The notes under the pieces were generated by a model. The model saw nothing but the letters and a program-made list of their open reading frames with translations. It did no database searches and was not told the origin of the DNA. Made by a program: the position numbers and the translations under genes. From the IMG/VR virus record IMGVR_UViG_3300044675_002010, positions 1 to 32,665 of that record: 32,665 nt of DNA; one strand, given 5' to 3'. This DNA is from a virus. This document shows, piece after piece, positions 8,168 to 30,697 of this stretch. How positions within the stretch are numbered: the stretch's first letter is position 1; each line of letters opens with the position of its first letter.

Positions 8168-8890
8168 GTGACCACTGAAACTATTTTTAAGGAAGGCCAA
8201 GACCAAGGCCAGCAAACCCCTCCAACGACACAAGGTAGTGGGGAAATCGTAGGTGCCCTCGTAGGTGATGGGCAAAAATACAAAACTGTTGATGAACTGG
8301 CAAAAGCCTATCTTCACGCAGATACTTTTATTCAACAATTGAAAGAAGAGAATCAAAAGTATCGTGAGCAAGCTATGGCAGCTAAGAGCATTGATGAGGT
8401 TTTGGAACGTATTGAACAATCGCAGCGAGTTCAACAGACTACCCCTGTTGAGCCTGAAAAAGTTGACATTTCTGCGCTTGTTGAACAAACGTTAACGCAA
8501 CGTGAAGCAAAGAAAATTCAAGAAGCAAATCTTCTTGAAGCAGATCGGCTGATGAAAGAACGGCATGGAGAACGTGCTATTGAACTGTTTAAGAGTAAGG
8601 CCAATACTCAAGAACTTCAAAAGCTGTATATGGACTTGGCTGCACGTAGCCCGCAAGATTTTGTAGCTTTGTTTGGTGAGTCTCAACCGATTGGTAATGC
8701 AATGCAGAGTGGCGCAAGTGTCAACTCTGTAAACATTCAATCTCATGGTACAAACCGAGAAAACATTGAAGGCACTAAAGAATGGTTTAGTAAGCTGCGG
8801 CGTGAAAAGCCACAACAATTCTATTCATCTGCAATGCAAGTTCGTTTTAGCAAAGCTGCAACAGAAAACCCCAAACTTTATTTCGGTTAA
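8168..8890 (+). CDS. capsid scaffold protein
   Basis: A 240-residue protein starting with GTG after AAAGGATTAA. The N-terminus is glutamine-, threonine- and glycine-rich and disordered; residues ~55-85 and ~105-160 are charged and predicted coiled coil (QQLKEENQKYREQAM; EAKKIQEANLLEADRLMKERHG). The C-terminal end is basic (FSKLRREKPQQFY), as in scaffold proteins that contact the capsid shell. It immediately precedes the major capsid gene, the standard position for a podovirus scaffold. No protease domain is visible. Confidence 0.8.
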   Translation: MTTETIFKEGQDQGQQTPPTTQGSGEIVGALVGDGQKYKTVDELAKAYLHADTFIQQLKEENQKYREQAMAAKSIDEVLERIEQSQRVQQTTPVEPEKVDISALVEQTLTQREAKKIQEANLLEADRLMKERHGERAIELFKSKANTQELQKLYMDLAARSPQDFVALFGESQPIGNAMQSGASVNSVNIQSHGTNRENIEGTKEWFSKLRREKPQQFYSSAMQVRFSKAATENPKLYFG

Positions 8891-8902
8891 GGAGAAAATT
8901 AA

Positions 8903-9868
8903 ATGGCAAGTTTTGATTATAGCAAGGTCAATGACCATCTGGTACGCACTGAACAGTGGAGTTCTTACCTCAAGGAAGTTCTGCAAGAAGACTTGATGGC
9001 TAAGGGCTATGTGCGTCAACTGGATGGCTTCACGGATGGCAACCAACTGACGATTCCCTCTGTCGGTGAAATGCCGATGCGTAACGTGGCAGAAGATTCT
9101 CCTGCCGTGTACGATGCTGCTGACACTGGTGAATTCACTTTCACGATTGACCACTACGTTGAGTCTGCATTCTTCATGACAGATCGCGCAAAGCAGGATA
9201 GCTACTACGCTTCGCAACTGCTGGCTATGATTCCTGAGAAGATGCGTCGTGCTTTGGACGAAGATTACGAAAGCAAGGTGTGGAGCCTGGGCAACACCCA
9301 AACGTTGAACGATGCTAACAGCATCAATGGCGCTGCTCACCGCTTTGTTGCTTCTGGCGACTCTAACACCAACCTGTCTCTGGAAGACTTTGCCAAGGCT
9401 AAGTTTGCTTTGGACAAGGCTTCTGCAATGGGTGCTCGTATCGCTGTGATTGACCCCTCGCAAGAGTTTGTGTTCAACAAGCTGATTGGCGCTCAAGGCT
9501 TCATTAACAACCCGCAATTTGAAGGTGTTGTGGTGTCTGGCCTGACTGGCAATGCTCCGAAGTTCATTCGTAACTTCATGGGCTTTGACGTGTACGTGTC
9601 GAACTTCCTTGGAACCCCGACCGACTCGGCTATTAACGCTGATGCTCGCGGTTCTGTTTCCACTCCGACTGCTCCTGTCTCCAACCTGTTTATGACTGTT
9701 GGTGGCGATCGCACTCCGTTTGTTGGCGCATATCGTCAACTGCCGCGTGTTGAGTTTGAACGGAACAAGGATTTGCGTCGTGACGAGTATGTGATGAACG
9801 CTCGCTTTGGCCTCAAGCTGTATCGCCCTGAGTGCCTCGTGTCTATCATCACCAAGAGCACCATCTAA
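8903..9868 (+). CDS. major capsid protein
   Basis: A 321-residue probable HK97-fold coat protein. Support comes from its position (after scaffold, before decoration and tail tube genes), its length, a very strong ribosome binding site (AAGGAG), and segments typical of podovirus coat proteins: EVLQEDLMAKGYVRQL, LTIPSVGEMPMRN, FTFTIDHYVESAFFMTDRAKQD, and a C-terminal R-rich segment EFERNKDLRRDEYVMNARFGLKLYRPE. Codon use shifts to CTG, GGC, AAG and ACC relative to neighbours, consistent with very high expression. A strong terminator lies just after the gene. A long antisense open frame (8825-10174) is a by-product of this codon bias. Confidence 0.92.
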   Translation: MASFDYSKVNDHLVRTEQWSSYLKEVLQEDLMAKGYVRQLDGFTDGNQLTIPSVGEMPMRNVAEDSPAVYDAADTGEFTFTIDHYVESAFFMTDRAKQDSYYASQLLAMIPEKMRRALDEDYESKVWSLGNTQTLNDANSINGAAHRFVASGDSNTNLSLEDFAKAKFALDKASAMGARIAVIDPSQEFVFNKLIGAQGFINNPQFEGVVVSGLTGNAPKFIRNFMGFDVYVSNFLGTPTDSAINADARGSVSTPTAPVSNLFMTVGGDRTPFVGAYRQLPRVEFERNKDLRRDEYVMNARFGLKLYRPECLVSIITKSTI

Positions 9869-9873
9869 TTGAC

Positions 9874-9893
9874 GGGGGATTTGTCCCCCTTTT
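9874..9893 (+). terminator. rho-independent terminator after capsid gene
   Basis: GGGGGA (9874-9879), a TTTG loop and TCCCCC (9884-9889), followed by TTTT. It would lower read-through into the downstream genes and so keep coat protein in excess. Confidence 0.85.
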
Positions 9894-9910
9894 AAGCAAA
9901 GGAATTTAAT

Positions 9911-10381
9911 ATGACTCGTAAATCTGTATGGACGAATGCTGACGGTTTGAAAGTTGGCTTTGGCCCTCAATTGGCTGACTTCTCTAGTCAAGGTGTGCAT
10001 CGTCAAACTGGCAATGAAGTGGTTGTGTCGTTTGTGCTTGATGGCGAAAAGTTTAGCGGCGGCACTTATCAGTTTGACTCGCAAGAAGTTGTTCCTGTTG
10101 GCGCTGTGCCTCTGTACGCTCATGTACGGGTGTCTGAAGCGTTTGTTTTGGGCGGTACTACCCCAACCATTCAAATTGGTGATGCTGGCTCTGCAACGCG
10201 ATTTGGCTCTCTCTCTGAGGCTAATGCTGAAGCACTCGGTACTTACACCACTTCGGTGACTGCTACGCCTCTCACGGCTGCTGGTACGATTGCAGTGACG
10301 CTTGGCGGAACAACCCCGACTGTTACTGCTGCTGGTCGTGCAACTGTGACTTTGGCTTACCGCGTTAACCCTGCGCTGTAA
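9911..10381 (+). CDS. putative head decoration protein
   Basis: A 156-residue protein rich in valine, threonine, glycine and alanine. It contains LGGTTPT twice (VLGGTTPTIQIGD at about 77-89 and VTLGGTTPTVTAAGRATV near 129-146), an internal duplication of a beta-type segment. It lies between two terminators directly after the capsid gene, so it is a transcription unit of its own or a read-through product. Position, composition and size fit a capsid decoration or stabilising protein. There is no signal peptide or membrane span. The function is inferred from context. Confidence 0.65.
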   Translation: MTRKSVWTNADGLKVGFGPQLADFSSQGVHRQTGNEVVVSFVLDGEKFSGGTYQFDSQEVVPVGAVPLYAHVRVSEAFVLGGTTPTIQIGDAGSATRFGSLSEANAEALGTYTTSVTATPLTAAGTIAVTLGGTTPTVTAAGRATVTLAYRVNPAL

Positions 10382-12205: not shown

Positions 12206-14512
12206 ATGGCAGCACAGCCCTCACAAGAAGATTTTTTCTCGTTTGTTGGTGGTCTAAACACTGAGGGCGGGTATTTCCTTACTCCAAAGAATTCTTGGAA
12301 AGAAGGGGATAATGTTGTCCCTCAAAAAGATGGTTCTATTCAGCGTAGAAATGCAATCAACTTAGAACAAAACTATGTATACTCTGCCACTGGCATTGTA
12401 GACACTACAATTGATTCCTACGCTTTTTCTACACATATTTGGCAAGATGTTGGCGGCAATGGAAATAAAAACATTCTAGTTTGTCAGTTTGGACAATATG
12501 TTTATTTTTACGATGCTTCAACAACTACAACTTCTACAACTAAATATAGTTTTGAAATTTATCTTCCAGACTATCAAGCATTTGCCAATAGCAGCTTGAT
12601 TGGCGCTGCTGTAATTTCTTGTGCAGATTGCTATGGCAAACTAATCATCACTTCTCAAGACACAGACCCAATTGCAATTTTGTATGAGTCTGACACAGAG
12701 TTTGTTGTCAAACGTCTTGATTTGAAGATGCGTGATTTTGATGGTATTCCAAGTCCTATTTCTTCCGATCAAGAAAAGACACAAGCTGAATGGGAAAACA
12801 TTAACTTCTGGCCTGAAGCTCTTTACAATCTTTATAATCAAGGTTGGAAAGATGATAAACTTGCAGTTTATGTCACTAATACAGCCGGTAAATATCCTGC
12901 TAATAGTAAGCAATGGATTCGTGGTAAAAATACTACCGATGATTTTGACACAACAGTGTTGGCAAAAATTGACTTTGGAACTTCTCTAGCTCCAAAGGGA
13001 CGAGTTATTCTAAGTGCTTTTAATCAAGATAGAGCAAAATCTTTATTGACACTTGATATTAGAGGAACTGCACCAAGTAGTCCTTCAATAGTTTCTCGTT
13101 TTGCAGAAGGTTATTCAAACTATTATCAGAAAATCTTTTTTGATAATGTACCCTCCGTTGATGGATTAGCAATTACCACTGACGGGTATAGACCTGCTCA
13201 TTGTGCTTTCTATGCTGGTCGTGTTTGGTATGCTGGTCTTCCTTCTGGTGAAAAACTTGGCTGGATTATGTATAGCCAAATTGTTACTGATATTTCGAAA
13301 GTTGAGAATTGTTATCAGCAAAATGACCCAACTTCTGAAGTTATTTCTGATCTATTGGAAACTGATGGCGGTATTATTCAAATTCCAGAAGCAGGAAACA
13401 TTGTTGGTATGCAACCCCTTGGAAAAGGACTTGTTGTATTTGCAACAAATGGTGTATGGATGATCTCTGGTGCTGATGCTGGATTTACCCCTGTTAATTA
13501 CACTGTTGATAAAGTTTCTAATAATGGTTGTTTTGCACCACAATCTATTGTTAAGGCAAATGAATTTCTTTATTACTGGGGAATCTCTGGAATCTATCGT
13601 TTGAAGTATTCTCCATCAGAAGGTGTTGGAGTAGAATCTTTAACTGATACTACTATTAGAACTTATTTAATTGATATTCCAACATTCTGTAAAAAGTATG
13701 TTGAAGGTAAGTATAACGACAGTGAAAAAATTGTATATTGGCTATACTCAGATATTGTAGAAAGTAAGTTTAGGAAAAATAAACTTCTATGTTACGATAG
13801 TTATATTGGATGTTTTTATACACAAACTATTGATAATAGCCTAGACCCAACTGTAGTTTCTATTGGCGTGACAAAAGAAAATACAAATATCACAACTACA
13901 GATGTTATTGATGATTCTGCAAATCTTGTTGTAGATGACTCTGCAAATCAAGTTGTTGCTGATGTGCTTGAAGAAAGTGCAGGGGTACAGAAGATTAAGT
14001 TTGTGACTCTTGTGACAACAGGTGGCAACAAAAAGCTAACGTTTGGTGAGTATTCTTCTACACGAACAACGTTCAATGATTGGGTTTCTTACAACAATGT
14101 TGGTGTTGATGTTGCATCTTACGTTTTAACAGGGTATAATCTTGCCTCATCGGGGCCAACGAAAGCTAAGACAGGAAACTACATTGTAGCATTCTTGAAG
14201 CGCACAGAAGAGACATTTGATGCAGCCGTTGTTCCTACGCCACCATCTTCATGTTTGTTGCAAACACGATGGGATTTTACAGACAATGTAATTGCAGGAA
14301 AATGGAGTGACAACATTCAACTTTATCGTATTAACAGAGTGTTTTTTGGAACACCTTCTACAGATTATGAAAATGGTTATCCATTAGTTATAACTAAGAA
14401 TAAGATTCGAGGCAGAGGAAAGAGTATTCAAATGAAGTATTCTTCTGAAGCTGGAAAAGATATGAAACTTGTTGGATGGTCTGCTACTTTTACGAGTAAT
14501 TCTAATGTATAA
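12206..14512 (+). CDS. tail tubular protein B-like (nozzle)
   Basis: A 768-residue nozzle protein, the size and place of T7 gp12-like proteins. The N-terminus (FSFVGGLNTEGGYFLTPKNSWKEGDNVVPQKDGSI) is a classic start for this family: a protein that lists the GGLNT motif and RRNA-type turn. Later parts are beta-rich with propeller-like repeats (WYAGLPSGEKLGWIMYSQI; GLVVFATNGVWMISGADAGFTPVNYTVDKVSNNGCFAPQSIV; FLYYWGISGIYRLKYSP). Near residues 569-584 there is a tandem repeat DDSANLVV/DDSANQVV. Together with the gatekeeper it forms the tail tube that carries spikes and ejects DNA. AAAGGAATAAT precedes the start. Confidence 0.85.
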   Translation: MAAQPSQEDFFSFVGGLNTEGGYFLTPKNSWKEGDNVVPQKDGSIQRRNAINLEQNYVYSATGIVDTTIDSYAFSTHIWQDVGGNGNKNILVCQFGQYVYFYDASTTTTSTTKYSFEIYLPDYQAFANSSLIGAAVISCADCYGKLIITSQDTDPIAILYESDTEFVVKRLDLKMRDFDGIPSPISSDQEKTQAEWENINFWPEALYNLYNQGWKDDKLAVYVTNTAGKYPANSKQWIRGKNTTDDFDTTVLAKIDFGTSLAPKGRVILSAFNQDRAKSLLTLDIRGTAPSSPSIVSRFAEGYSNYYQKIFFDNVPSVDGLAITTDGYRPAHCAFYAGRVWYAGLPSGEKLGWIMYSQIVTDISKVENCYQQNDPTSEVISDLLETDGGIIQIPEAGNIVGMQPLGKGLVVFATNGVWMISGADAGFTPVNYTVDKVSNNGCFAPQSIVKANEFLYYWGISGIYRLKYSPSEGVGVESLTDTTIRTYLIDIPTFCKKYVEGKYNDSEKIVYWLYSDIVESKFRKNKLLCYDSYIGCFYTQTIDNSLDPTVVSIGVTKENTNITTTDVIDDSANLVVDDSANQVVADVLEESAGVQKIKFVTLVTTGGNKKLTFGEYSSTRTTFNDWVSYNNVGVDVASYVLTGYNLASSGPTKAKTGNYIVAFLKRTEETFDAAVVPTPPSSCLLQTRWDFTDNVIAGKWSDNIQLYRINRVFFGTPSTDYENGYPLVITKNKIRGRGKSIQMKYSSEAGKDMKLVGWSATFTSNSNV
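13910..13957 (+). repeat. 24-base tandem duplication in nozzle gene
   Basis: Two adjacent 24-base units (13910-13933 and 13934-13957), identical at about 20 of 24 positions, encode DDSANLVV and DDSANQVV. It is in frame and looks like a recent duplication of a surface loop. Confidence 0.8.
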
Positions 14513-14969
14513 ATTTCAATATGATGTTCCAATGGATATATTTTTAGATAAAGCTAAAGATATTCTTTATCGTCATTGGGAAGAATTAGCATTAAATAAA
14601 GATAAAATTCAACTATCTCCTGACAAAGAAAAATCTTGTAAATTGCAAGATATTGGCGTATTAAAAAACATTGTCATTTATAATGAAAATGAGGAAATAG
14701 TTGGATATTCTGTTTTGTTAATTCAACCTGCATTACATTATAGTTGTGATACTTTTGCTCATGTAGATATCATTTATGTAGATAAGCAATATAGGTCATC
14801 GTCACTTGGCGCAAGACTCCTTCTTGCTACAGAAAATATAGCAAAAGAAAATGGAGCAAGTGTAATTTTACACCATGCAAAGCCAAATGTCCCAATGATT
14901 ATTAAGCCATTGGAAAAGTTAGATTATAAACTATACGAGTTTATATACGGAAAATACTTAGGAGAATAA
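14505..14969 (+). CDS. GNAT-family N-acetyltransferase
   Basis: A 154-residue predicted acetyl-CoA-dependent acetyltransferase. The start at 14505 overlaps the nozzle stop by 8 bases. The GNAT core is VDIIYVDKQYRSSSLGARLLLATENIAKENGAS: a beta strand, then a Q/R-x-x-G-x-G/A-type acetyl-CoA loop (here YRSSSLGARL) and helix, followed by a strand ILHHAKPN and the C-terminal arm. The first half (HWEELALNKDKIQLSPDKE; IVGYSVLLIQPALHYS) matches the N-terminal arm and strand pair of the fold. Such genes sit in the structural operon of some phages, often just before internal virion proteins. The substrate is unknown; it could modify a virion or host protein. Confidence 0.8.
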   Translation: MYKFQYDVPMDIFLDKAKDILYRHWEELALNKDKIQLSPDKEKSCKLQDIGVLKNIVIYNENEEIVGYSVLLIQPALHYSCDTFAHVDIIYVDKQYRSSSLGARLLLATENIAKENGASVILHHAKPNVPMIIKPLEKLDYKLYEFIYGKYLGE

Positions 14970-14970: not shown

Positions 14971-15387
14971 ATGGGTTATGTAGCAGCCGCTGCGGCGCTT
15001 TATTCTGCCGATCAACAAGCAAAAGCAGGGCGACAACAACAACGTGCTTTTGAAGCTGAACAGCGAAAGGCAGATATTGAAAATGTCTATAAAGCTAGAC
15101 AGTCTGTTAGGCAAGCCCGTATTGCACAGGCTCAAATGCAGTCCCAGGCTGCAATGACTGGTGGTGTTGGAGGTAGTGCTCTTGCTGGTGGTATGTCCTC
15201 TATTCAAAGTCAGCTTGGTGGCAATTTGAATTATATGGCATCAATTGCAGAAGAAAACACTGCAAGCCAACGTGCTCAAATGAACGCTGCTCGTGCTTCT
15301 ACAAATGCAGCAATTGCAGGTACTATTGGATCATTTGCTGGTTCTCAAGGTGGAAAAGACTTAAAGCAATTCTTGGGGGGTACTTGA
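14971..15387 (+). CDS. internal virion protein (T7 gp14-like)
   Basis: A 138-residue protein, alanine- and glutamine-rich. An N-terminal hydrophobic segment (YVAAAAALYSA) is followed by long helices (QRAFEAEQRKADIENVYKARQSVRQARIAQAQMQSQAAMTGG) and a glycine-rich middle (GGVGGSALAGGMSS). This is the composition of the small ejection proteins that form a pore in the outer membrane in T7-like phages. It directly precedes the two very large ejection-type genes. TAGGAGAATAAT gives a strong start; the stop overlaps the next ATG (TGATG). Exact membership of the gp14 family is inferred from composition and order. Confidence 0.65.
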   Translation: MGYVAAAAALYSADQQAKAGRQQQRAFEAEQRKADIENVYKARQSVRQARIAQAQMQSQAAMTGGVGGSALAGGMSSIQSQLGGNLNYMASIAEENTASQRAQMNAARASTNAAIAGTIGSFAGSQGGKDLKQFLGGT

Positions 15388-18300
15388 TGGAAGAATACTA
15401 TGAAACTGTGCCTGAAGAAACTCAACAAGAGGAAGGTGATTATCCAACCCTTGAAGAGATTCAAAGCGCACCTCCACCTGTAGAGCAGCCTGCTCCTGTT
15501 TTGCAGGCTGTAACTACCCTTGCAACAGGTGTTGAAAGCAAAGGGCCAGTTGATTATGTGAAACACCTAGATGAAGTTTATAGGCAAATTGCTCCAAAGA
15601 TTCAAGAACAAGAAAAACAATTTGCAATGGAAGGTGCAAAACTTGGCGATGTGAACTATGTTGGTTCTATTGTTCAAGATATGTATAAACGACAAGCTGA
15701 AATGAATGCTGAAAAAGCAAATCATATTCAGCGCTTTAGAGATGTTGCATCTGTTGCTTTTGATAATGTAGTGTTTAATAATACTGGTATCATCTACAAT
15801 AATACGCCAGAACAAATTGCAAAGTCTGCTGAGAGAACAATTAACACTGTAACTGTTGCTTCTACAATGGAGCGTTTGCAAAAAGAAAGTACACTGGCTG
15901 GGATGGCTGGGTCTTTTGCGCTTGCATTTACTCCGCTTGGAATTACAACAAATGTTGCACTTGGTAGTGCGGCAGAGAAATATATTGGCGAAGCATCAAG
16001 CAAAGTAAATTACGGAAAAACAATTGATGAGCTTCGCTATTTCTATACGACACTTGGTAGTGAATCAGAAAAAGTTTCTTTTATTCAAACATTCCAAAAA
16101 GAACTAGAAAATACTTGGTCATTGACTAAGTATGACTCTGTAAATATTTTGAATGAAATTGTTACTGAGCCAGAAGGTATTAGCACTGTTGGTAATGTAT
16201 TTTATTCTTCTGCCCCTCTTCTTGGTGCTATTCCTATTGTTGGACAAGTATCAAAATCTGCAAAACTACTTAGCGCTGCTAGTAAACTGAGCAAGACAGC
16301 AAAAGCTGAAAACATTGTTGCAGGTGTTGGAGGTAAAGACTCAATTGTTGAGGCTGCTGCAAGTGCTATGCGGCAAAAGGCTTTTCTTGGTTTGGCAAGT
16401 GAAGTTACTGGCGCACAAGGCGCCATAGACATCACAAACTTGGCAACTAAGGGTACAAGTGCTGTTCTTGGTAAAATGCTTCCTGATGCCATTACAACCG
16501 CTTCTGGCAAGGTTCAAGAAGCAATCCTAGAGTCTGTTGAGAAAGCAAATCAAAAACTGCGTTCTACAATTGGTTTGCAAAATGTTCGTGAGTCAGAAAT
16601 TGAAGATTTGATTAAAAGTCAAATGGTCAAGTATGACAAGAACATTGATAAGACATTGCACATGGTTCACATTGGACGCACAGAAAACGATCCATTTGGT
16701 GTTCTAACAACTGTTTTACGTGGCACGCAGGATGGTACTGTGTTCCTCACAAAAGAGGCTGTAGACGAGTATATTAAGGTTGCAGACCCATCTGGCAAGT
16801 TGGGATTGAAAGCTGTTAAAGACACTGCAAATAACACTCATGCTTTAACAGAAGAGTCTAAGAGGGCTTTGATTCTTGAGCGTGATGCTGCAATGGCAAA
16901 GATTGTAGAGATGCAATTGCCAAAGCAAGAAGTTCCTGTTGCAAAACCTGTTGATGGTCAAAAGCCTGTTGAAGTCTCTGGAAAACTTCCAAAAGAATTG
17001 GCTGGCGCAAAACCAAACTATGCAATTGGGCCTAGTAAGTTTGCATTGCAGTTTGATAGTGACATTGACAAAGCTGCTTTTATTGTATCTCAAACAAACA
17101 AGTCTAAGCGTGATGCAGACTACTTGCAATGGTTGAAAAATACAACAAAATGGTCTGATGGAGAAATTGCTGCACATGGCAAAAATGTTCGTGACTCTAT
17201 TAAAGGCCAAGCAAAAACATCTGAACCCGGCGTATTAAAAATTGCTCGTGTTGAAGCTGCCCCTGCAAAGGCAGTGGAGCCAACAGTTAAAGCTGCTGTT
17301 GAAACTACAAAACCTGCTATTGAGATTGCTGAAGGTTCAAAAGTTGATCCAATTTATCATACTCACAAGGGTGTGTTTTATGTTGGTAAACGTGGGATTG
17401 TTGTCGATTTAGAAGTTAAAAATAAAGAAACTATTGCAAGCCTTGACTCTAAAGAAAAATTTGACAATGCAGTAAAAGTTTGGGAAAAATGGTTGCCAAC
17501 AGATGAAAATGGCAAGCCATTAACAAAACAAGCAATTAAAGTTGTCAATGATATTCTTACAAAAGCAAAAGCAAATTTTGATAGTAATGGTAAATTCATT
17601 GGAAAACATAAGTACGCAACAGATATTGTTATTGGCAATTCTTTGCATAAAGGTGAAAGGTTTTTTAATACTGCGGAAGAAGCAAAGAATTTTGCAAATA
17701 CTTATGGACAACGAAAAACTGTTTCAAAAGCTACAGGCACCACCTTTGAAAGCACTAAAGCAGAGCAACAAGTAGTTGCTGATGCTATCCGTGGTAAATC
17801 TGTTCCAGAGCTTGCCAAATGGGCTCTTGAAAACTCTAAGTCAGAACTTGATAAGTTCGTCATGGCAAAAGTGTTTTCTCGTATTGAAGCAATGGAAAAG
17901 GATGGTGTAAAATTTACATTTGAATTGCTTGAAAGTGATAGTAGAAAACTTTCAATGTCAAATGCAAGAGGGATGGTTTCATCAAACGTTGTTCCTCTTG
18001 GACAACAAAAAGAAATTACACTTTCTTTGAATGGCCCTGTTAAACTTGAAAATCAGTTGAATTTCCCATCTGGGATGGATTTTGAAATTATTAAGCATGA
18101 ACTAATTCATGCTGCAACACAAGCTCATTACGGAACATCTGATAAAACAATTAAAGAACTTAAAGACCTTTTTAACACTGTTATTAAGGAATTTAATGTT
18201 CGTGCAAAAGAAGGTAAGCTAGAAGGTATTAGTCTTGAAACTTATAAGAGGCTTAATAATTTCTTAGAAAACCCTCAAGAGTTGTTGGCATGGGGATTGA

Positions 18301-21300
18301 CAAATGCCAAGGCACAAGAGTTTTTGCTTTCAATTAAAGTTGGTGAAAAAACTCTTTGGAGTAAACTTGTTACAATCGTAAGAAATGCTCTTGGTATTTC
18401 TAAGGATTATGAATCTGCATTTGATAGACTTCTTCGTGTTTCAGAGGATATTCTTGAAGTTCCTCCTGAACAAGTTAGAAAGTTTGTTGAGGCAGAAGGT
18501 TTGTCTCTTGGGAAAGCTGATGCTTCTTTGGTTGAAAAAGCTGGTGGATTTGGAACTAATCAACCTGCATGGGCAACTCGGATTGCAAAGAGTATAGATT
18601 CAGAGGTTATCTTTACAACTGATACAGTTGGTCTTGTAAAGGGTCAGAGTGTATCTGGAAAAGATATTTATCTTGGAATTTTTAAGAATGGTCAATACAC
18701 TCGTGTTGACATTGAAAAGTATACTGGTTCTGGTTTTTCTGCCGAAGAACTTAGCACGCTTCAAAAAGCAAAAGAAAATTACATCTCAAAAAATGTAGTT
18801 ACTCGTATGCAAGAGGGAGCAAGTGAAGAAGAAACTCTTAATAAACTCCAAGCCACTGTCGATCTTTCCAATGCACGATTGAAAGCTGCTTCTGATATTG
18901 AAAATGGCTTGTCTGCTGGTTGGCTTGTTGAAGAAAAAATTAAAGCAAATCTTAATGCCTCTTCATTAGGAAAATTCAAAGAAGAAGACATTCAAAGCAT
19001 GATGCGTTTTGCTTTTGGTGACAAAGCACTTGGAGCTTCTAAAGAAGTTTATGAAGCGCATTTGCTTGGTGTCATGGCGGAGTCACGTATTCGTGGCGTG
19101 CTGGTTGACATGGTTGAAAAGCCTATTCGTGCCTTGAATACAAAGGACAGGATTGCATTGAATAATGCTCTTGTGGCCGGAGACAAGGAAGGAAAGGTAT
19201 TTGATGCTGTAGAACTTCGTGGAATGGATTTGGTTTCTGATGAAAGTCAGAAAGCCTATTATGCTGTTCGTGCTGCTCGTGACATGACTTGGCGTTTGCG
19301 TAATCAAGCGGCTTCCAAGAGCATGACATTGAAGGGCTGGAAGGAAATGTGGCATCCTGCCATTGCAAAGTACAAGGATGAGCTACAAGGCTTCAAATTG
19401 TTTGGCAAGGAGGCAGATACATCAGCTATTGGAAAACGAGCCCTAGACCCCAATACGGGCGAAACTATGGTGATTTCTGCTAACAGATTGGAAGAGTTGA
19501 ACAATCGTGGATTTAAGATTGTTGAATTTGACACGCCTGTTCCTATGGCCGGTGTAAATCGCACCCATGTTATTGTGCAGGCTGGCGGACTTGAACTTAA
19601 AACTATCACAGAAGTGATTCCATACCGCACAGGTGAAATGAGCCGTATTTATGATGACGAATACTTTGTTCGTTTGAAAGGTAGCAAAGAACTTGACGGT
19701 TTGAAAGAAGATGTAAATATCACTCATCGCACAGCAAAGAGTGCTCGTGAAGCTAATGCTTATGCAAAGGCTTATAACGAGATGGTTGCTTTGTATAAAG
19801 AAGGAAAACTTGATACACAAGCCGCTGCTAAGATGCAAGCCTATGGATGGAAACCTGAAGATTTAATTGCTTCAATTGCTCAAAATCCAAAGGTTGAAGC
19901 TGTTGTAAATTACACACGAACTGACAATGACTATCTTGAGGCATTGACAAGTTATGGACGTAGTTTCACAAGTAAACGTGGCGAGCATATTCCTGATGTG
20001 TTTGGCAATACAACAAATGTTGCTGATCCTCTTGACGCTTTGGCTTCTGAGATTGGAAATACTGCGTACATGGCAAGTCACACTGAATGGTTTGATGTAA
20101 GCATTCAGCGTTGGTTTGAAACTGCAAAACCTTTCTTGTCTCCTGAAATGCAGAAGATGACTGCTGACAAAGCATTTGCAAGATATGTCACAACGAAGGG
20201 ATCATATGTAGGCCAAGGCAAAACTGAATTGTTCGTTAGGCGTGTTGCAGATCAAATTGCAGAAGCTATGAAAGTTAATGACAAAGAGAGCCGGCAAATG
20301 CTTGGCTTGATGCGTTCATTGACTGAATCTTTTGAAGCTAAAACTGGAAAGTTTGAAAACGTTGGCTCATTTATGCGTCAAACTAATTGGGAGTCTTTTG
20401 CAAAAACATTTGCCTTCCATTGTGTGTTTGCGTTCAATCCTGTACAACTTTTTGTACAAGGTGCCAACACTGTCAATGCAATTGCAATTAGTCCTTTACA
20501 TGGACTGAAAGCTGCAAAAACTTATACATTCTTGCGTGCTGCACTTACTTCTGACAATCCTGATGTCTGGGCAAAAATTGCTAAGACAAATAAATGGGCA
20601 AGCGTTGGGATGGAGAGTGAAGAAGACTTTATTCGGCTTGTAAAAGCAGTAGATAGGTCTGGCCTTATAGAAAACTTGCAAACAAGTAGCTTGTATAACA
20701 TGCAACTTGGCAAGCATAATTTGACAAAAGGTTTTCTTTCTGGTGATCTTGGAAGAGCAAGTAGTTTCTTCTTCCGTGAGGGTGAAGAGGCTTCTCGTTT
20801 GGTGGCTTTTGACATCTCTCGTCGTGAATGGATTAAAGCAAATCCAGGCAAAGTTTGGGACACGGACGAAGCATTAAAAGAAATTCTAGTGCGTCAAGAC
20901 ATGCTTACTGGTACAATGACAAATGCAAATACCGCATCTTGGCAGAAAGGACTGATTTCAATTCCTGCTCAGTTCTTGCAATTCCCAGTTAAGTTTGGTT
21001 TGAACATAGTAAATAGTTTGTTTGGTGGAAAAAGAACTTTTACACAGAAAGAAGCTCTTAGTTTGATAATTGGTAACTTGACTCTGTTTGGAACTGCTGG
21101 ATTGCTTGGCACAAGCCTTGCACAATCTGTGTTTGGTGACAGCATTGGAGAGTTGTCAGAGGATCAACGTCTGGCTCTTTCTCAAGGTGTTATTGCAAGC
21201 GCAGTTAGTGCAGTGACAAGTGCTTTTGATGAAGAAGGTGAAGGCGCACAACTGGCAATTGGTGATCGTATCAATCCGTTGAAATTCTATGTTGACTTTG

Positions 21301-21932
21301 TTAAAGGACTTGGAAATCTTGAAGAGGCAAAAGCTCTTGAGATGATTGGCGGGCCTTTCTTTGGGATGATACAACGTGTAAGATTGGCAGGATCACAGAT
21401 CAAAGACCTTTACGTTGTCAATCCAGACCTCTCTCCTGAAAAAGCATCTGAAGCAATTAAAGCACTAGTCAAGATAACTTCTGTTGGAAACAATTATTTC
21501 CAAGGTGTTAGGGCTGAAAATCTCTATAATCAGCACGTTTCTAAAGGTGTTGGTCAATACCGATTCAATGATAAAGAACTTTTTTATCAGAAGTATTTTG
21601 GTATTAAACCTGCTGCTGCTGTTGACTTTCAATCAATTACAGAGTCTAATATAGACTATGCAAAAAGAATGAAGAAGGAAGCAGAAAGAATCACTGATTT
21701 GAGAATTAAAGCGCTTGAAGCCTATAGAGCTGGTGATACAACCACTGGTGAAAAATATGGCAACATGGTAAATATATTGCTTTCAAGTATGCCTATCAAT
21801 GACAGAGCAGAAGTTGAATCAAAAACCAGGACAATAGATGCTTCCACTAAACTAGACGAAATGCTTGTTGAGCATATGCTTGAAAGAAGCGGAACGTCTA
21901 ATAAGTCAACAATGGTTATTAAACAACCGTAA
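15387..21932 (+). CDS. giant internal virion / polyvalent protein with zincin domain
   Basis: A 2181-residue protein, the largest in the window. The N-terminus is acidic (EETQQEEGDYPTLEE) and then helical, with a hydrophobic stretch near 165-195. Residues ~545-600 resemble a module seen in large phage proteins (FDSDIDKAAFIVSQTNKSKRDADYLQWL). A zinc metallopeptidase motif HELIH is at 904-908 with a likely third ligand Glu965 in ENPQELLAWGLTN; this pattern occurs in polyvalent phage proteins. The C-terminal ~500 residues carry FAFNPVQLFVQGANTVNA, ASWQKGLISIPAQFLQFPVKF and a hydrophobic segment near 1890-1915. No lytic transglycosylase motif was found. Order and size match ejected core proteins (gp16-like). 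Start ATG 15387 overlaps the previous stop; GGGGGG is its weak ribosome binding site. Confidence 0.75.
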   Translation: MEEYYETVPEETQQEEGDYPTLEEIQSAPPPVEQPAPVLQAVTTLATGVESKGPVDYVKHLDEVYRQIAPKIQEQEKQFAMEGAKLGDVNYVGSIVQDMYKRQAEMNAEKANHIQRFRDVASVAFDNVVFNNTGIIYNNTPEQIAKSAERTINTVTVASTMERLQKESTLAGMAGSFALAFTPLGITTNVALGSAAEKYIGEASSKVNYGKTIDELRYFYTTLGSESEKVSFIQTFQKELENTWSLTKYDSVNILNEIVTEPEGISTVGNVFYSSAPLLGAIPIVGQVSKSAKLLSAASKLSKTAKAENIVAGVGGKDSIVEAAASAMRQKAFLGLASEVTGAQGAIDITNLATKGTSAVLGKMLPDAITTASGKVQEAILESVEKANQKLRSTIGLQNVRESEIEDLIKSQMVKYDKNIDKTLHMVHIGRTENDPFGVLTTVLRGTQDGTVFLTKEAVDEYIKVADPSGKLGLKAVKDTANNTHALTEESKRALILERDAAMAKIVEMQLPKQEVPVAKPVDGQKPVEVSGKLPKELAGAKPNYAIGPSKFALQFDSDIDKAAFIVSQTNKSKRDADYLQWLKNTTKWSDGEIAAHGKNVRDSIKGQAKTSEPGVLKIARVEAAPAKAVEPTVKAAVETTKPAIEIAEGSKVDPIYHTHKGVFYVGKRGIVVDLEVKNKETIASLDSKEKFDNAVKVWEKWLPTDENGKPLTKQAIKVVNDILTKAKANFDSNGKFIGKHKYATDIVIGNSLHKGERFFNTAEEAKNFANTYGQRKTVSKATGTTFESTKAEQQVVADAIRGKSVPELAKWALENSKSELDKFVMAKVFSRIEAMEKDGVKFTFELLESDSRKLSMSNARGMVSSNVVPLGQQKEITLSLNGPVKLENQLNFPSGMDFEIIKHELIHAATQAHYGTSDKTIKELKDLFNTVIKEFNVRAKEGKLEGISLETYKRLNNFLENPQELLAWGLTNAKAQEFLLSIKVGEKTLWSKLVTIVRNALGISKDYESAFDRLLRVSEDILEVPPEQVRKFVEAEGLSLGKADASLVEKAGGFGTNQPAWATRIAKSIDSEVIFTTDTVGLVKGQSVSGKDIYLGIFKNGQYTRVDIEKYTGSGFSAEELSTLQKAKENYISKNVVTRMQEGASEEETLNKLQATVDLSNARLKAASDIENGLSAGWLVEEKIKANLNASSLGKFKEEDIQSMMRFAFGDKALGASKEVYEAHLLGVMAESRIRGVLVDMVEKPIRALNTKDRIALNNALVAGDKEGKVFDAVELRGMDLVSDESQKAYYAVRAARDMTWRLRNQAASKSMTLKGWKEMWHPAIAKYKDELQGFKLFGKEADTSAIGKRALDPNTGETMVISANRLEELNNRGFKIVEFDTPVPMAGVNRTHVIVQAGGLELKTITEVIPYRTGEMSRIYDDEYFVRLKGSKELDGLKEDVNITHRTAKSAREANAYAKAYNEMVALYKEGKLDTQAAAKMQAYGWKPEDLIASIAQNPKVEAVVNYTRTDNDYLEALTSYGRSFTSKRGEHIPDVFGNTTNVADPLDALASEIGNTAYMASHTEWFDVSIQRWFETAKPFLSPEMQKMTADKAFARYVTTKGSYVGQGKTELFVRRVADQIAEAMKVNDKESRQMLGLMRSLTESFEAKTGKFENVGSFMRQTNWESFAKTFAFHCVFAFNPVQLFVQGANTVNAIAISPLHGLKAAKTYTFLRAALTSDNPDVWAKIAKTNKWASVGMESEEDFIRLVKAVDRSGLIENLQTSSLYNMQLGKHNLTKGFLSGDLGRASSFFFREGEEASRLVAFDISRREWIKANPGKVWDTDEALKEILVRQDMLTGTMTNANTASWQKGLISIPAQFLQFPVKFGLNIVNSLFGGKRTFTQKEALSLIIGNLTLFGTAGLLGTSLAQSVFGDSIGELSEDQRLALSQGVIASAVSAVTSAFDEEGEGAQLAIGDRINPLKFYVDFVKGLGNLEEAKALEMIGGPFFGMIQRVRLAGSQIKDLYVVNPDLSPEKASEAIKALVKITSVGNNYFQGVRAENLYNQHVSKGVGQYRFNDKELFYQKYFGIKPAAAVDFQSITESNIDYAKRMKKEAERITDLRIKALEAYRAGDTTTGEKYGNMVNILLSSMPINDRAEVESKTRTIDASTKLDEMLVEHMLERSGTSNKSTMVIKQP

Positions 21933-21946: not shown

Positions 21947-24334
21947 ATGGTAAATAGGGTGGATATTACCCAAGCGTTGACACCCTCTACCCCTGATGTT
22001 ACGGGGGCTGTCAACGCGATTAGGAGTCAAGCCGGCATTGCTCAAACCCTCTTCGGAGGGATTTCTTCTATGCTTGGTGAGAAGAAAGCAGAGGATTTGA
22101 GGAAGCTACAAGAGGAAGCTGAACAAATCACTGCTGGTTCAATTAAGGCAACTGAATTAAGCAAGCAAGCAACAGAAGAATATCTTGTTGCAAAGAGAAA
22201 GCAAGAATCTGCTTTACAAAATTTAAGTGGTTCAGAAAAAACATCCACTGAGCAAGATAAAACTCTTCCTTTTGAAGCAGATATTTTTAGTGCTGCTAAT
22301 AAATTAAAAAATGCTCAAGAACAAGGTGCAATTAACCAAGTTCAATTTCTGGACAGGGTTACAAACCTTGTCAATAAATATGCAGGAAAATATCCTGGCT
22401 CAAAAGAAGAAATTCGTGCAATTGTATCAAAAGGGACTGGCCTTCCTGGTGCTGACTTGTGGGCACAAAATCAATTTGTTGAACGTATGTTTACTCCTCC
22501 AAAAGCTGCTGACACAGATAAGACACTTAGGGAGGCAAAAAAAGCAAAAGACGAAGCGATTGCAAAATATAATGGCGTATTCTTAAATGATGTTATAGAT
22601 GCTGAAACAAGCAACCCAAAACTGTATACACAATGGGCTGCAACTGCAAGTACAATTATGCAATCTGAAGCTGCAAAAGCAGCAAGAGATGCAGCGGCAG
22701 GTAACATCACTTCTGCTGGAAATATTGGTTTTAGAGAGTTTACAGACAAATCTGTAGATGGAGCTTCTCTTAGTAGTGTCGCAAAAACTCGTGAGTTTTT
22801 TACAGCTAACAAAGGGGAAATGTCAAAAAGAATTGACAACCTTTTGCGAATTACAGACCCAACTCCAGAGAACATTGCAGAAATCAATTCTACACTTATT
22901 CAACTTTCAAACATTGTTGAATCTGAATTTAATGATGCAAGGGCAAATGTTCTTCAAAATTACAGTTCTTCTGTTGCACCAGAGGTTAGAGATGACGCAC
23001 TAAAGCGAATTGACCAGACAAAACAATCAATAGTTGATAAGATTAAAACTGGCGATTTAGCACAAAAACGTACAATCTTGGAACTTTTTAACGCTGCAAA
23101 TACAACAACTCGTAATGACAATCTTAAAATGATTGCCGTTGCAGGAGATCAACTCAAATACTTTGCATCTAATCCAACAATCATTAACGCACTCTCAGTG
23201 GATGAATACAATAAAGATGGTACTAAAAGTGCAGAATGGCAAATACTAGAAGCACGTTCTAGCACTCTTGCAGAACAACTTAGAGCTCATAAAAAACGTC
23301 TTCTTTCTATGCCTGTTGATGTACCTGCTCCAAAGCCATTTTTTGTTACCGCAGCGGAAGATGCACAGCAAAATCCAAATGCTACGCCAACAGGCCCAAC
23401 ACCGCAAGAGACAAAAGCCGCTAATGATTTAGTTGCTCTAAATGCTGCAACAATTTTGAAGGCTTCAGCAATTGTAAAAGCTCAAGGTACAATGGGTGGT
23501 CTTGGTGCAGTTTCAACAGAGATTGCAACTGAAATGAATAAAGATGCAAACGTTGTTGGAACTTCTCTTTCAAATGTTGGGTATGGTAGGTCTTTAACTC
23601 TTGTTTCACAAAACGAAGAAGGATATAAGACATTTATAAAAAATCTTAATGAAGAAAGTTTGACCCCTCTTAAACAAGCAGGAAGTCTTATTTATGAAAA
23701 GTCATTGTCTAGTGCTCAAAAAGGTGTTTCTGATATTAGTAAGAAATATGGACTAAAGACACCTTTGCAAATTGGTGTTATTCCAGGAACAAACAAAGTT
23801 GGTATTATTCCTCCACCTAAAGATTATTTTGAAGATGTTAAAACAACATCTCCTTATGGTAGAGGATTTAGTGCTCCTGCTGAAAAAATCCAAACAGTTC
23901 CAGCGCCATTCACTCAATACTTCATTGGTAAAACAGTAAAACCAGAGTATGTTGTTGAAGTGAATAAACTTGCTTCTGCTGCTCAAGAATGGAATAATAC
24001 ATATCTTCCCCGTGTTATGGGGTCAACTATGACACGAAGTATTTATACTGGCGAATCAAAGGAAAAAGTAGCTAATGAAATTGCTAATCTTGTCAGTGGT
24101 AATAAACCTATCACTGGCTTTTTCACTATTCCAGTGCCACAAACAGCACCAGCGGGAACCGCAGCAACAGGAGGTGGAGTAGAGGTTGGTATCCAAGGTG
24201 TCGGTGGTGGAGCTGATCGTCCAGAAAGACTAGATATTGAAACACTCAGGAAAATGGCAAACAGCGACGCACTCCCCTCAGAAACAAGAGCTAAACTCGC
24301 TGCAATTGTAGCTGACATGGAGAAAAATAAATAA
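21947..24334 (+). CDS. large internal virion protein
   Basis: A 795-residue protein after the giant gene, probably a second ejection/core protein (the place of gp15-like proteins). The start at 21947 has AAGGA eight bases upstream; ATG at 21942 is too close to that site. The protein is largely helical: EKKAEDLRKLQEEAEQITAGS and later coiled-coil segments, with linkers rich in Pro/Ala and a glycine-rich tail (GTAATGGGVEVGIQGVGGGADRPER) before a short terminal helix. No enzyme motif is visible. The stop overlaps the endolysin start (TAATG), so both are translated together. Function is inferred from context. Confidence 0.6.
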   Translation: MVNRVDITQALTPSTPDVTGAVNAIRSQAGIAQTLFGGISSMLGEKKAEDLRKLQEEAEQITAGSIKATELSKQATEEYLVAKRKQESALQNLSGSEKTSTEQDKTLPFEADIFSAANKLKNAQEQGAINQVQFLDRVTNLVNKYAGKYPGSKEEIRAIVSKGTGLPGADLWAQNQFVERMFTPPKAADTDKTLREAKKAKDEAIAKYNGVFLNDVIDAETSNPKLYTQWAATASTIMQSEAAKAARDAAAGNITSAGNIGFREFTDKSVDGASLSSVAKTREFFTANKGEMSKRIDNLLRITDPTPENIAEINSTLIQLSNIVESEFNDARANVLQNYSSSVAPEVRDDALKRIDQTKQSIVDKIKTGDLAQKRTILELFNAANTTTRNDNLKMIAVAGDQLKYFASNPTIINALSVDEYNKDGTKSAEWQILEARSSTLAEQLRAHKKRLLSMPVDVPAPKPFFVTAAEDAQQNPNATPTGPTPQETKAANDLVALNAATILKASAIVKAQGTMGGLGAVSTEIATEMNKDANVVGTSLSNVGYGRSLTLVSQNEEGYKTFIKNLNEESLTPLKQAGSLIYEKSLSSAQKGVSDISKKYGLKTPLQIGVIPGTNKVGIIPPPKDYFEDVKTTSPYGRGFSAPAEKIQTVPAPFTQYFIGKTVKPEYVVEVNKLASAAQEWNNTYLPRVMGSTMTRSIYTGESKEKVANEIANLVSGNKPITGFFTIPVPQTAPAGTAATGGGVEVGIQGVGGGADRPERLDIETLRKMANSDALPSETRAKLAAIVADMEKNK

Positions 24335-24702
24335 TGTTCAAATTCAGCCAACGTAGCAAAGAGCGCCTTGTTGGTGTAGACCCCTCACTTGTTAAAGTTA
24401 TGGAAGAGGCGATTAAAGCCTCTCCATACGATTTTTCAATCACTGAAGGGGTACGTACCAAGGAACGCCAAAAAGAGCTGTATGACGCTAAAAAGAGCCT
24501 TACTTTGCAATCTAAGCACCTAATTGGGAAAGCTGTTGACATTGCTGTGTTTGTAGACGGAAAACTCACTTGGGAACACAAGTATTATCTTTCCGTAGCA
24601 ACACACATCAAAGCAGTGGCAGAGAAGCTAGGTGTTAAGATTATCTGGGGAGGTGATTGGCGCAGGTTGGTCGATGGGCCTCATTTTGAACTAAAGGAAT
24701 AG
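24334..24702 (+). CDS. endolysin, M15 peptidase
   Basis: A 122-residue cell-wall peptidase of the VanY/M15 family, which cleaves peptide crosslinks or stems in peptidoglycan (L-alanyl-D-glutamate or D-Ala carboxypeptidase type). The zinc ligands are visible: SKHLIGKAVD gives His62 and Asp69 (SxHxxGxAxD) and DGPHFEL gives His117. ITEGVRT (36-42) and IWGGDW (104-109) are conserved around the active site. There is no signal peptide or wall-binding domain, so it is a single-domain, holin-dependent lysin, as in T5-type endolysins. The holin gene follows two bases after its stop. Confidence 0.9.
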   Translation: MFKFSQRSKERLVGVDPSLVKVMEEAIKASPYDFSITEGVRTKERQKELYDAKKSLTLQSKHLIGKAVDIAVFVDGKLTWEHKYYLSVATHIKAVAEKLGVKIIWGGDWRRLVDGPHFELKE

Positions 24703-27651: not shown

Positions 27652-29298
27652 TTATTGACAAACTTCGCACTCGCCTGTAGAACCCTTAACACCTGCTAGT
27701 GTGTACATATAGTACAAGCCAACAATCTTTTCGTCAAGGAACGCTTTCTTATGCACTGCACTAATCACATCTTCACTTTCATCTGCTGAGAAGAACAGAT
27801 TGACACTCTGCCACTGGTCAATGAACTGACTGCGCTGTGAAGCGTGACGCAACACTGCCATCTGGTCAATTTCAAACGCTGTCTTAAACACCTTCTTCTC
27901 TTCATCAGAAAGCCAAGAGACATGTTGAACACTGCCAAACTTGTCATTCACTTCCTTGATTGCAGCTTCCACATCTTCGCATCGTTCTTTCACAACGTCA
28001 AGCAACACAGGGTCAATTCGATCAACATTCCCTGCTGCTGTTGTTTGTGTAAACGTAAACGCAGGGCATGGGTTGATTCCCTCAGACACACCACCCATCA
28101 ACAATGCAGTGCTCTTTGTTGGTGCAATTGCAATGAGGCTTGCATTGTTTTTACTAGCCTTCTTCGCATTGGTTGACAACTTCTCAAAGATTTCCATGTT
28201 CAGCCAGCCAGCTTCCAGGCTTTCCCACGGAATGCGCTTTTGCATCAGCAACGTGTGGTAGCCACAGACACCAAGGCCCAAGGCTCTATAACGCTCTGTA
28301 AAGCGACGAATCTTCTCGAAGCCAGCTACCCCCCAACTCTTGTCCAGAAACTCATCTACGACGCAATTAAGGAACTCTACAGCCCATGCAACATAACAAT
28401 CTTCAGTGCCTAGCTTCTCGTTAATCTTGTCCCAATGCACAAGGTTCAAACTGGACAACACACAAGAGTAGGTGTGCTGCTCATCACTTGGCAACAAGAT
28501 TTCAGAGCAAAGATTTGATGCCTTATTCGTGCCTTTGTATGCCTTTGGCAACTTCCGATTTGCCTTGTCAACAAACCAGAAATAGCCCTTGCCTGTCACT
28601 GCCTTGGCTTTAAGCGCTTTTTGATAGCGACGAACAGCATCGGTATCTCCTGCATTAAGACGCGCAATAAAAGCATCAGAGATATTCCAGCCAACATTAA
28701 GATCGTCAGGAGAAGCAACAAGGTAGTCACACAACTCATCAAAATCTCCGTGGTCAATCGGTAAATATCCTGCAAAAGCTCCACGCCTATTACTTCCTTG
28801 TGATACAAGTTGCATGTCTGCAACAAAACTCTTGAAGAGAGGCACTACGCCAGAAGCCTTGCCCTTCCCCTTAAATGGGGTTCCACGCTTGCGAACATCC
28901 CCCAGGTAGGCTGATGTACCAAAGCCCATCTTTGTGAGCATAGCAGTTTCATGCTTGGCCCGGTAGAACCCGTCTACGCTGTCTTCAACGTAGCTACCAG
29001 CGCAAGAGATAGGAAAGCCCCGGTCAGTTCCCATGTTTGATAGCACAGGAGTAGAGGGTGAGAGAATACCATCCCATAGCATGTTGAAGAAAACTTCTCT
29101 TGCATTTGGCTTGTCACTGTATTTAGCTGCTGATGTAGCAATTCGTTCAAATTGTTCTCGGATTGTACGTGCTTCATACAAGTATTTTTGCATGAACATG
29201 GCATATCCGCCTGTCGAGTACCAGGGAGGGGTTTCCCCCCTGGCTTGACTTTTCTTTCGTTCTTCGCTGAGTTTTTCATACTCGTCATTCTTTACCAT
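27652..29298 (-). CDS. nrdA: ribonucleotide reductase large subunit (class I NrdA)
   Basis: A 548-residue alpha subunit that reduces ribonucleoside diphosphates, with NrdB supplying the radical. The catalytic residues are clear: Cys99 in GFPISC and Cys279 in TYSCVL (redox pair), and NLCSE at 262-266 with the thiyl radical Cys264, Asn262 and Glu266. LYYMYT near the C-terminus holds the paired tyrosines of the radical path, and CEVC at 544-547 is the C-terminal cysteine pair for re-reduction. The protein starts directly with the substrate domain; the N-terminal ATP cone of cellular NrdA (~100+ residues) is absent, as in many phages, so allosteric activity control by dATP is probably missing. 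The start overlaps the nrdB stop by 7 bases. Confidence 0.95.
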   Translation of the reverse strand: MVKNDEYEKLSEERKKSQARGETPPWYSTGGYAMFMQKYLYEARTIREQFERIATSAAKYSDKPNAREVFFNMLWDGILSPSTPVLSNMGTDRGFPISCAGSYVEDSVDGFYRAKHETAMLTKMGFGTSAYLGDVRKRGTPFKGKGKASGVVPLFKSFVADMQLVSQGSNRRGAFAGYLPIDHGDFDELCDYLVASPDDLNVGWNISDAFIARLNAGDTDAVRRYQKALKAKAVTGKGYFWFVDKANRKLPKAYKGTNKASNLCSEILLPSDEQHTYSCVLSSLNLVHWDKINEKLGTEDCYVAWAVEFLNCVVDEFLDKSWGVAGFEKIRRFTERYRALGLGVCGYHTLLMQKRIPWESLEAGWLNMEIFEKLSTNAKKASKNNASLIAIAPTKSTALLMGGVSEGINPCPAFTFTQTTAAGNVDRIDPVLLDVVKERCEDVEAAIKEVNDKFGSVQHVSWLSDEEKKVFKTAFEIDQMAVLRHASQRSQFIDQWQSVNLFFSADESEDVISAVHKKAFLDEKIVGLYYMYTLAGVKGSTGECEVCQ

Positions 29299-30245
29299 GA
29301 AAATGCTTTCTCGTTCCAGTCTCGTCGGTATTCTTTGCCAATGCCAGCAAAGAAGTCGTTAAATGCAAACCCTGTAATGTCTTTGTAAAACCACTCTGCA
29401 ATCGGATTGTACTTTGGTTTATACAAAGCCTTCAGGCCGAGATTTTTAAGGCACAGGTCAATTCGGTGTTCCACAAAATGTTTCATCTGCGTAGCCGTAA
29501 TACCTGATATTTCACCCACCTCAAACACTTTGTCAATAATGAGTGTTTCGTGTTGATACAGTATTTTTGCAGCATCGTAAATTTTCTCCGATACGTCGCC
29601 ACCAATTTGCTCTTGCAGGGCACGATAACACCAAGCCCCCGCTTCTGCATGTAGGGCTTCATCACGTACCGAGAATGCAATGCCACGACAAACATTGTTC
29701 AGTTTGTTTTTTCCGTTTGCTTGGAAGTGCTTAAGGAATGCGAAAGCACTATACAACACAGCACCTTCGACAAGGCTAAATACAGCCGTTGAATATAGGT
29801 CATCTTCATCACTTAGTGCCTTGTCAATAAACTCCATCCGTTCTTTCAGGTCTGGGTCTTCCACGTAGCTTGTGTAAAAACTGTCAGTGCTTACGTTCAA
29901 AGCCTCGTTCAACTTGGCATAGAACGGAGCATGCACAGCAAGCTCAAACATGGAGAACACAGAAGCCATACGTGTAAACTCTGGCCGAGGGAATGTCTTT
30001 ACAAAGCGGCTTCCCCAATACTCTCCACCAGCACGAAGCTCATACAACGTGAACAATCGAAGCGTTGTAAGAACTCCATGCTTCTCTGCCGGAGTCATGT
30101 CAACAAGAATGCTTTGAACATCCTTCTCAACGTTGATTTCCCCAGGCAACCAGAAAATCTCAAGCTGCCTGTCTGCATACTCAATAGGAACTTTATACTT
30201 TGCTACAATACTTTCTGTTGGAACTTGGATGTCAGCGGAAGTCAC
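29292..30245 (-). CDS. nrdB: ribonucleotide reductase small subunit (class I NrdB)
   Basis: A 317-residue beta subunit that houses the metal cofactor and radical. GTG at 30245 is chosen because GGAGG lies 5 bases upstream; a longer frame to 30350 lies inside the mazG gene. Ligand candidates: Glu69 (TLYELRAGG), Glu101 and His105 (FELAVHAPFY), with Tyr109 at the radical position; in the second half Glu160 (SLVEGAVLYSAF) and Glu196/His199 (RDEALH). The second ExxH is canonical. The first is ExxxH rather than ExxH, which needs checking against phage relatives. The C-terminal tail (DWNEKAFSW) should bind NrdA. Confidence 0.93.
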   Translation of the reverse strand: MTSADIQVPTESIVAKYKVPIEYADRQLEIFWLPGEINVEKDVQSILVDMTPAEKHGVLTTLRLFTLYELRAGGEYWGSRFVKTFPRPEFTRMASVFSMFELAVHAPFYAKLNEALNVSTDSFYTSYVEDPDLKERMEFIDKALSDEDDLYSTAVFSLVEGAVLYSAFAFLKHFQANGKNKLNNVCRGIAFSVRDEALHAEAGAWCYRALQEQIGGDVSEKIYDAAKILYQHETLIIDKVFEVGEISGITATQMKHFVEHRIDLCLKNLGLKALYKPKYNPIAEWFYKDITGFAFNDFFAGIGKEYRRDWNEKAFSW

Positions 30246-30561
30246 CAGAGCCTCCAATCTTTTTACGTGCTGCCCGGTCAGTGAGTTTCTTGATGTTCTC
30301 TTCCATAGCACGTTCAAGAGGGATGCCGTAGTAGTGCGCCAGTGTTGCAATATGCCACATCAAGTCACCAAGCTCATTCTCCAACTTAATCAAGTAATAC
30401 TCATATTCTGAATCACTCTCTTTGTCAGAATCACGTAGAAACTTCTGACGAACACCCATCACCTCGCCTGCTTCTGAAGCAAGCCCTGCAAAGATGGCTT
30501 CAAGGGTGTAGCTTGAAAGGCGAAAGCTCTCAGCCTTCTTTTGGTATTCATTCGGTGTCAT
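30232..30561 (-). CDS. MazG-like NTP pyrophosphohydrolase
   Basis: A 109-residue all-helical pyrophosphohydrolase that probably hydrolyses non-canonical or excess (d)NTPs to the monophosphate and pyrophosphate. It shows the metal-binding pattern: LASEAGEVMGVRQKF (E..xE) and KLENELGDLMWHIATLA (E..xELGD), followed by the conserved NIKKLTDRAARKKIGGSGDFR tail. ATG 30561 has GAGG upstream and overlaps the previous tiny ORF by 14 bases; its stop overlaps nrdB by 14 bases. It sits with nrdA, nrdB and thyX in one operon, which suggests housekeeping of the dNTP pool, or degradation of a stress nucleotide such as (p)ppGpp; the latter is inference. Confidence 0.88.
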   Translation of the reverse strand: MTPNEYQKKAESFRLSSYTLEAIFAGLASEAGEVMGVRQKFLRDSDKESDSEYEYYLIKLENELGDLMWHIATLAHYYGIPLERAMEENIKKLTDRAARKKIGGSGDFR

Positions 30562-30697
30562 CTTCGTCCTCTTCAACGTTCTCGTAGTATTCCAGGGTGT
30601 CACGCAGATTAGTGCGGAAACTTGGGTCTAGTGAATACACATCGTCAGCATTCTCTTCGATGCTACTCAAAATATCTTCAATACATGGAATACTCAT
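30548..30697 (-). CDS. small acidic protein upstream of MazG
   Basis: A 49-residue acidic protein: MSIPCIEDILSSIEENADDV, SLDPSFRTNLRDTLEYYENVEEDEDDTE. The start at 30697 lies 2 bases after the previous stop, with a weak GAAAGA site. The final DNA (GAAGAGGACGAAGATGA) serves as the ribosome binding region and start of mazG. The strong acidity could mimic DNA, but no such role is shown. Too short for ordinary gene callers; accepted because of its tight coupling on both sides. Confidence 0.55.
   Translation of the reverse strand: MSIPCIEDILSSIEENADDVYSLDPSFRTNLRDTLEYYENVEEDEDDTE

Follow-up and report, generated by a model that had tools for sequence, protein, structure and literature searches.

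The giant gene and its surroundings

The window, meaning the whole 32,665-nucleotide stretch of viral DNA analysed here (IMG/VR virus record IMGVR_UViG_3300044675_002010, positions 1 to 32,665), carries one very long gene within the cluster of features collected in Table 1. This gene, read by the first-pass annotation as a 2181-residue ORF, is indeed a single open frame on the plus strand that comprises 2181 codons and a stop, and its ATG at 15387 overlaps the TGA of the gene upstream. The order tail appendage, acetyltransferase, small protein, giant protein and medium-sized protein is that of ICP2 and other Zobellviridae, and a GNAT acetyltransferase occupies the same slot in several Zobellviridae. 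Residues 1244-1936 of the giant protein matched PHROG 12003 (internal virion protein, E 3e-45), with a weak second match of the protein to PHROG 7672. Scored with a profile built from 11 internal virion proteins of Zobellviridae, residues 1228-2136 reached 305 bits, and tblastn matched this C-terminal core to ICP2 and VP41s3. By sequence homology we therefore assign the gene product as a putative large internal virion (ejection) protein of a Zobellviridae-like podovirus.

Table 1. Features of the giant gene and its neighbours in the window
Feature	Position	Strand	Evidence
GNAT acetyltransferase gene, same cluster	14469..14969	+	Pfam PF00583, E 9e-9
Small protein, 138 aa, 'internal virion protein B' position	14971..15387	+	PHROG 8168, E 3e-16; position
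Giant internal virion (ejection) protein (predicted), 2181 aa	15387..21932	+	Open frame; PHROG 12003, E 3e-45; gene order
Small module, residues about 535-610	16989..17216	+	tblastn to other podovirus internal virion proteins
Pro/Ala/Val/Glu/Lys-rich linker, residues about 609-655	17211..17351	+	Composition
Zincin metallopeptidase domain (predicted), residues about 785-1030	17739..18476	+	Profile; AlphaFold2 models; BFVD structural matches
HELIH, residues 904-908, two predicted zinc ligands and general base	18096..18110	+	Invariance in alignments
Glu965, predicted third zinc ligand, on helix 963-972	18279..18281	+	Invariance; Glu helix of models
Zobellviridae-type C-terminal ejection core, residues about 1228-2136	19068..21794	+	Profile, 305 bits; tblastn to ICP2 and VP41s3
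795-aa protein, medium-sized core protein position	21947..24334	+	Position only

Outside the C-terminal core the giant protein was less readily classified. Pfam and NCBIfam searches with the whole protein and with pieces of it gave no useful match, and single-sequence IMG/VR scans with the whole protein or the zincin domain as query returned no relatives, so that the full architecture had no close homologue there. The small module at about 535-610 aligned by tblastn with a Macromonas BK-30P protein (8e-10) and a Sphaerotilus R1 internal virion protein (1e-8), with weaker matches in Prochlorococcus P-SCSP1 phages, and the linker that follows it is probably flexible. The first-pass annotation had found no lytic transglycosylase motif, and Pfam up to E 10 agreed with this. 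The absence must be read as soft because Pfam also misses LKD16 gp36, whose phiKMV counterpart carries a lysozyme.

For the 795-residue protein downstream, tblastn against the phage collection found nothing; its counterpart in oyster phage T2S2 has a Phage_lysozyme domain at its end. Separate from the core proteins, a gene at 24334-24702 encodes a 122-residue endolysin (PF13539, D-Ala-D-Ala carboxypeptidase type). Farther along, on the minus strand at 27652-32192, lie the large and small subunits of ribonucleotide reductase and thymidylate synthase. A 449-residue open frame antisense to the major capsid gene (8825-10174) is probably due to chance.

A predicted zincin-type domain in the N-terminal half

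HELIH (904-908) is the sole HExxH in the 2181 residues, and Glu965 falls in ENPQELLAWGLTN (961-973). The first-pass annotation had read the two together as a zincin signature. Since an HExxH occurs in 2.3% of composition shuffles of the giant protein, the bare motif is weak evidence. We built a zincin profile without the window and scored it against the six-frame window and 200 shuffles. The window domain reached 182.7 bits (E 2e-55) while the best shuffle reached 7.1 bits, and with the motif helix masked the domain still scored 144.5 bits. These scores argue that the zincin-type domain at about 785-1030 is genuine rather than a product of chance, and the proposed signature lies inside it.

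The same domain was traced into other phage proteins. In tblastn searches of phage genomes, residues 896-1031 aligned with phiKMV-like internal virion proteins and residues 896-1096 with the virion RNA polymerase of the N4-like Vibrio phage PG11; pairwise comparison of the window with LKD16 gp37 gave 30% identity at E 9e-12, and with the PG11 polymerase E 2e-10. A profile scan of IMG/VR returned 80 loci. All 58 members of a diverse alignment (A6) match phrog_2206, which the window domain matches at positions 2081-2249, and the sequence profile also found the solved chains 9sfn (phiKMV-type), 8vb2 (phiM1), 23sg (gp10) and 11fw (virion RNA polymerase). Some family members gave weak sequence matches to SprT-like proteins and SPRTN. 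By homology the window domain is the predicted zincin domain also carried by phiKMV-like ejection proteins and by the virion RNA polymerases of N4-like phages, and the first-pass proposal that ejection-type and zincin domains are combined in one giant protein thus finds homology on both sides.

AlphaFold2 modelled residues 785-1110 (326 aa) with a mean pLDDT of 80 and most core blocks above 90, and residues 818-985 (168 aa) with a pLDDT of 90 and a pTM of 0.85. Both models contain a helix, three strands, the HExxH helix, intervening helices and the Glu helix. The zincin core described by Iyer et al. 2017 (PMC5512222) consists of a helix, three strands, the HExxH helix and the Glu helix, and the modelled domain matches it in element order. 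The first-pass annotation had expected the HELIH helix to be placed near Glu965 in a model; the models support this as far as the order and confidence of the elements go. Searching BFVD by structure gave 13 matches with E no higher than 1e-3, the lowest being 3e-9; an N4-like virion RNA polymerase, polyvalent-type giants and the core protein of a phiKMV-like phage were among them. Foldseek against the PDB returned only noise for the 326-aa and 168-aa models. It failed to recover even the phiM1 chain picked up by the sequence profile, so that the zincin fold receives no independent confirmation from this search.

Conservation, carriers and mosaic make-up

Across the 58 sequences of A6, which share 17-31% identity with the window, the only invariant columns were H904, E905, H908, A909 and E965. 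The Glu965 column was kept in 67/67 sequences of a second alignment. Because the first IMG/VR scan had used the HExxH motif, a second collection was made by the Glu-helix pattern alone. All 43 loci collected in this way carried an HExxH upstream, at a distance of 56-98 residues from the Glu helix in 42 of them and further upstream, behind an insertion, in the remaining one. The motif was likewise kept in five phage proteins found by tblastn rather than by pattern. Relatives that had lost HExxH, which the first-pass annotation raised as the case against a peptidase, did not appear in either set (58/58 and 43/43 keep it). This pattern suggests His904, His908 and Glu965 as zinc ligands and Glu905 as general base. 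It also bears on the idea that the domain is non-catalytic and only a structural or packaging element. The region of the N4 polymerase that holds this domain is needed for encapsidation according to PMC5512222, which makes a structural role possible. If the role were purely structural, however, invariance would not be expected to fall on just the metal ligands, a general base and a single alanine, and we consider a solely structural function improbable.

The homology reaches proteins that have been given a different label. Residues 268-528 of the phiM1 ejection protein are described as endolysin/exotransglycosidase-like (PMC11440229), and many phiKMV-like GenBank records name the domain endolysin or exotransglycosylase. 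If the domain were a peptidoglycan hydrolase that opens the wall during ejection, these labels would be explained, and the window would not be short of a wall-degrading domain in its two large core proteins, where no other was found. However, residues 373-544 of the tetrameric phiM1 ejection protein (8vb2 chain A) align with the A6 profile at E 2e-10 and keep an HEAAH motif. The pattern of conservation is a zincin's, and Pfam finds nothing in LKD16 gp37 at thresholds up to E 10. In the published descriptions of phiM1 and PP16, moreover, a lysozyme-like domain is assigned separately, to the neighbouring core protein. We give the hydrolase reading little credence, and by sequence homology we place the endolysin-labelled stretch of phiM1 and of many phiKMV-like records in the predicted zincin family. 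None of the words 'protease', 'peptidase' and 'metallo' came up when the main text of the phiM1 paper (PMC11440229) was searched for them. In the phiM1 ejectosome, and in many phiKMV-like records, the endolysin-labelled domain is worth treating as a candidate protease, and this side result may matter more than the main finding.

The zincin-bearing IMG/VR proteins are built mostly on scaffolds unrelated to the N4 polymerase, phiKMV gp37 or the Zobellviridae core. LPD38 was present in 34 of those compared, and two of the five examined (L007 and L010) carry a ddrB-ParB domain upstream as well, which is a polyvalent-protein layout. We considered LPD38 as an identity for the C-terminal core of the window protein and rejected it, since the two gave no match. 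Very remotely, a profile comparison linked the Zobellviridae core to the C-termini of a few zincin giants (L034, L070 and L035). In the PG11 virion RNA polymerase (L003, 3467-13816) HExxH occurs twice, at 2187 and at 2424, with HEFAAYALTNEK after the latter, and two such motifs also occur in several IMG/VR giants. A Vreelandella venusta contig (L104, frame from 1485) has a 3456-residue frame with the same zincin and is perhaps part of an N4-like provirus.

Among the Zobellviridae-type proteins examined, the domain was found in the window protein alone. HExxH and the zincin domain are absent from 11/11 named orthologues (1414-1674 aa), and the window protein, about 500-770 residues longer than these, is therefore a mosaic. 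A two-sequence IMG/VR scan gave 8 further Zobellviridae-type proteins without the domain; three are complete and lack HExxH as well, and of the 5 incomplete ones 4 are cut N-terminally, where the zincin domain would be. The N-terminal half thus appears enlarged by roughly 500-770 residues that include the zincin domain. The limits of the inserted part are inexact, since the N-terminal 470 residues are colinear with Zobellviridae N-termini without reaching significance. A zincin module in a lineage whose examined relatives are without it allows domain-plus and domain-minus orthologues to be compared.

Proposed action and comparison with known systems

Our main reading, to which we assign a probability of roughly 55%, is that the window encodes a Zobellviridae-like ejection protein with an intact zincin of the N4/phiKMV type that hydrolyses a peptide bond only after ejection. 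By analogy with its homologues, the giant protein would be packed in the phage head and would leave it with or before the DNA. Zinc would be bound through His904, His908 and Glu965, and hydrolysis would take place in the envelope or the cytoplasm. The first-pass annotation had offered three roles, namely cleavage of cell-envelope proteins, maturation of the virion core and destruction of a host defence protein at entry, and the literature on homologues speaks against the second of these. If the zincin matured the core by self-cleavage in the assembling head, before or during packaging, then P1 DdrB, which has a related domain and is processed before packaging (PMC5512222), would be a precedent. 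The N4 virion RNA polymerase, however, is packaged unprocessed (PMC5512222) and its recombinant full-length form showed no degradation (PMC12633501), which argues against self-maturation before packaging, and the phiM1 ejection protein is modelled inside the virion with this domain (PMC11440229). Early maturation is accordingly a reading we hold unlikely, and action after ejection is favoured on the analogy with N4.

The literature covered on members of the family reports no activity and no substrate. The action we rank first, at somewhat less than even odds, is that the zincin would cut a host protein in trans. The active site is unchanged on unrelated carriers; a shared substrate fits this better than carrier-specific ones, and a host protein is the simplest such substrate. 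Cleavage of its own chain after ejection, which would detach the N-terminal part from the ejection core behind it, is nearly as likely, though we put it forward tentatively. The window zincin sits between N-terminal modules and the C-terminal core, the N4 zincin has the polymerase immediately on one side and an autoinhibitory C-terminal domain on the other (PMC12633501), and Iyer et al. proposed that such domains process polyvalent proteins (PMC5512222). Against it stand the lack of a known cleavage site and the undegraded recombinant N4 polymerase. A broader version of host-directed cleavage, which we regard as doubtful, is that a mobile zincin cassette serves as a common entry protease of short-tailed phages with one conserved host target, hidden under the name 'endolysin'; it would span Autographiviridae, Schitoviridae, a Zobellviridae-like phage and polyvalent-type giants.

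Zincins were predicted in injected phage proteins, including the N4 RNA polymerase, by Iyer et al. 2017 (PMC5512222), and the structure of the N4 C1 domain with its HExxH has been described (PMC12633501). The window protein resembles N4-like virion RNA polymerases (N4 gp50 C1) in its HExxH and downstream Glu, in the order of its elements and in the position of the zincin in the middle of a giant virion protein, but no RNA polymerase module was detected in it and its C-terminal core differs. With phiKMV-type gp37 and phiM1 gp48 (9sfn, 8vb2) it shares a homologous HExxH and Glu domain in a large ejection protein, whereas those proteins have 1230-1337 residues and are not alignable over the remainder. 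The Zobellviridae internal virion proteins (PHROG 12003, ICP2 gp6) agree with it in the C-terminal ~900 residues and the gene neighbourhood and differ in their shorter length and lack of the zincin. The first-pass comparison with T7 gp16 holds for a large core protein at the same genome position with a presumed ejection role, and the gene order agrees; it does not extend to sequence, since the C-terminal core is of Zobellviridae type and neither a T7 gp16 match nor a transglycosylase domain (Pfam up to E 10) was detectable. Polyvalent proteins are injected and combine at least two disparate activities; here one enzymatic domain was detected, and injection is suggested by homology. A zincin in an injected protein is thus a kind already known, and the domain is ordinary for its class. 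As far as our searches show, what is new is that a zincin is combined with a Zobellviridae core, together with the connection to the endolysin-labelled ejection domain.
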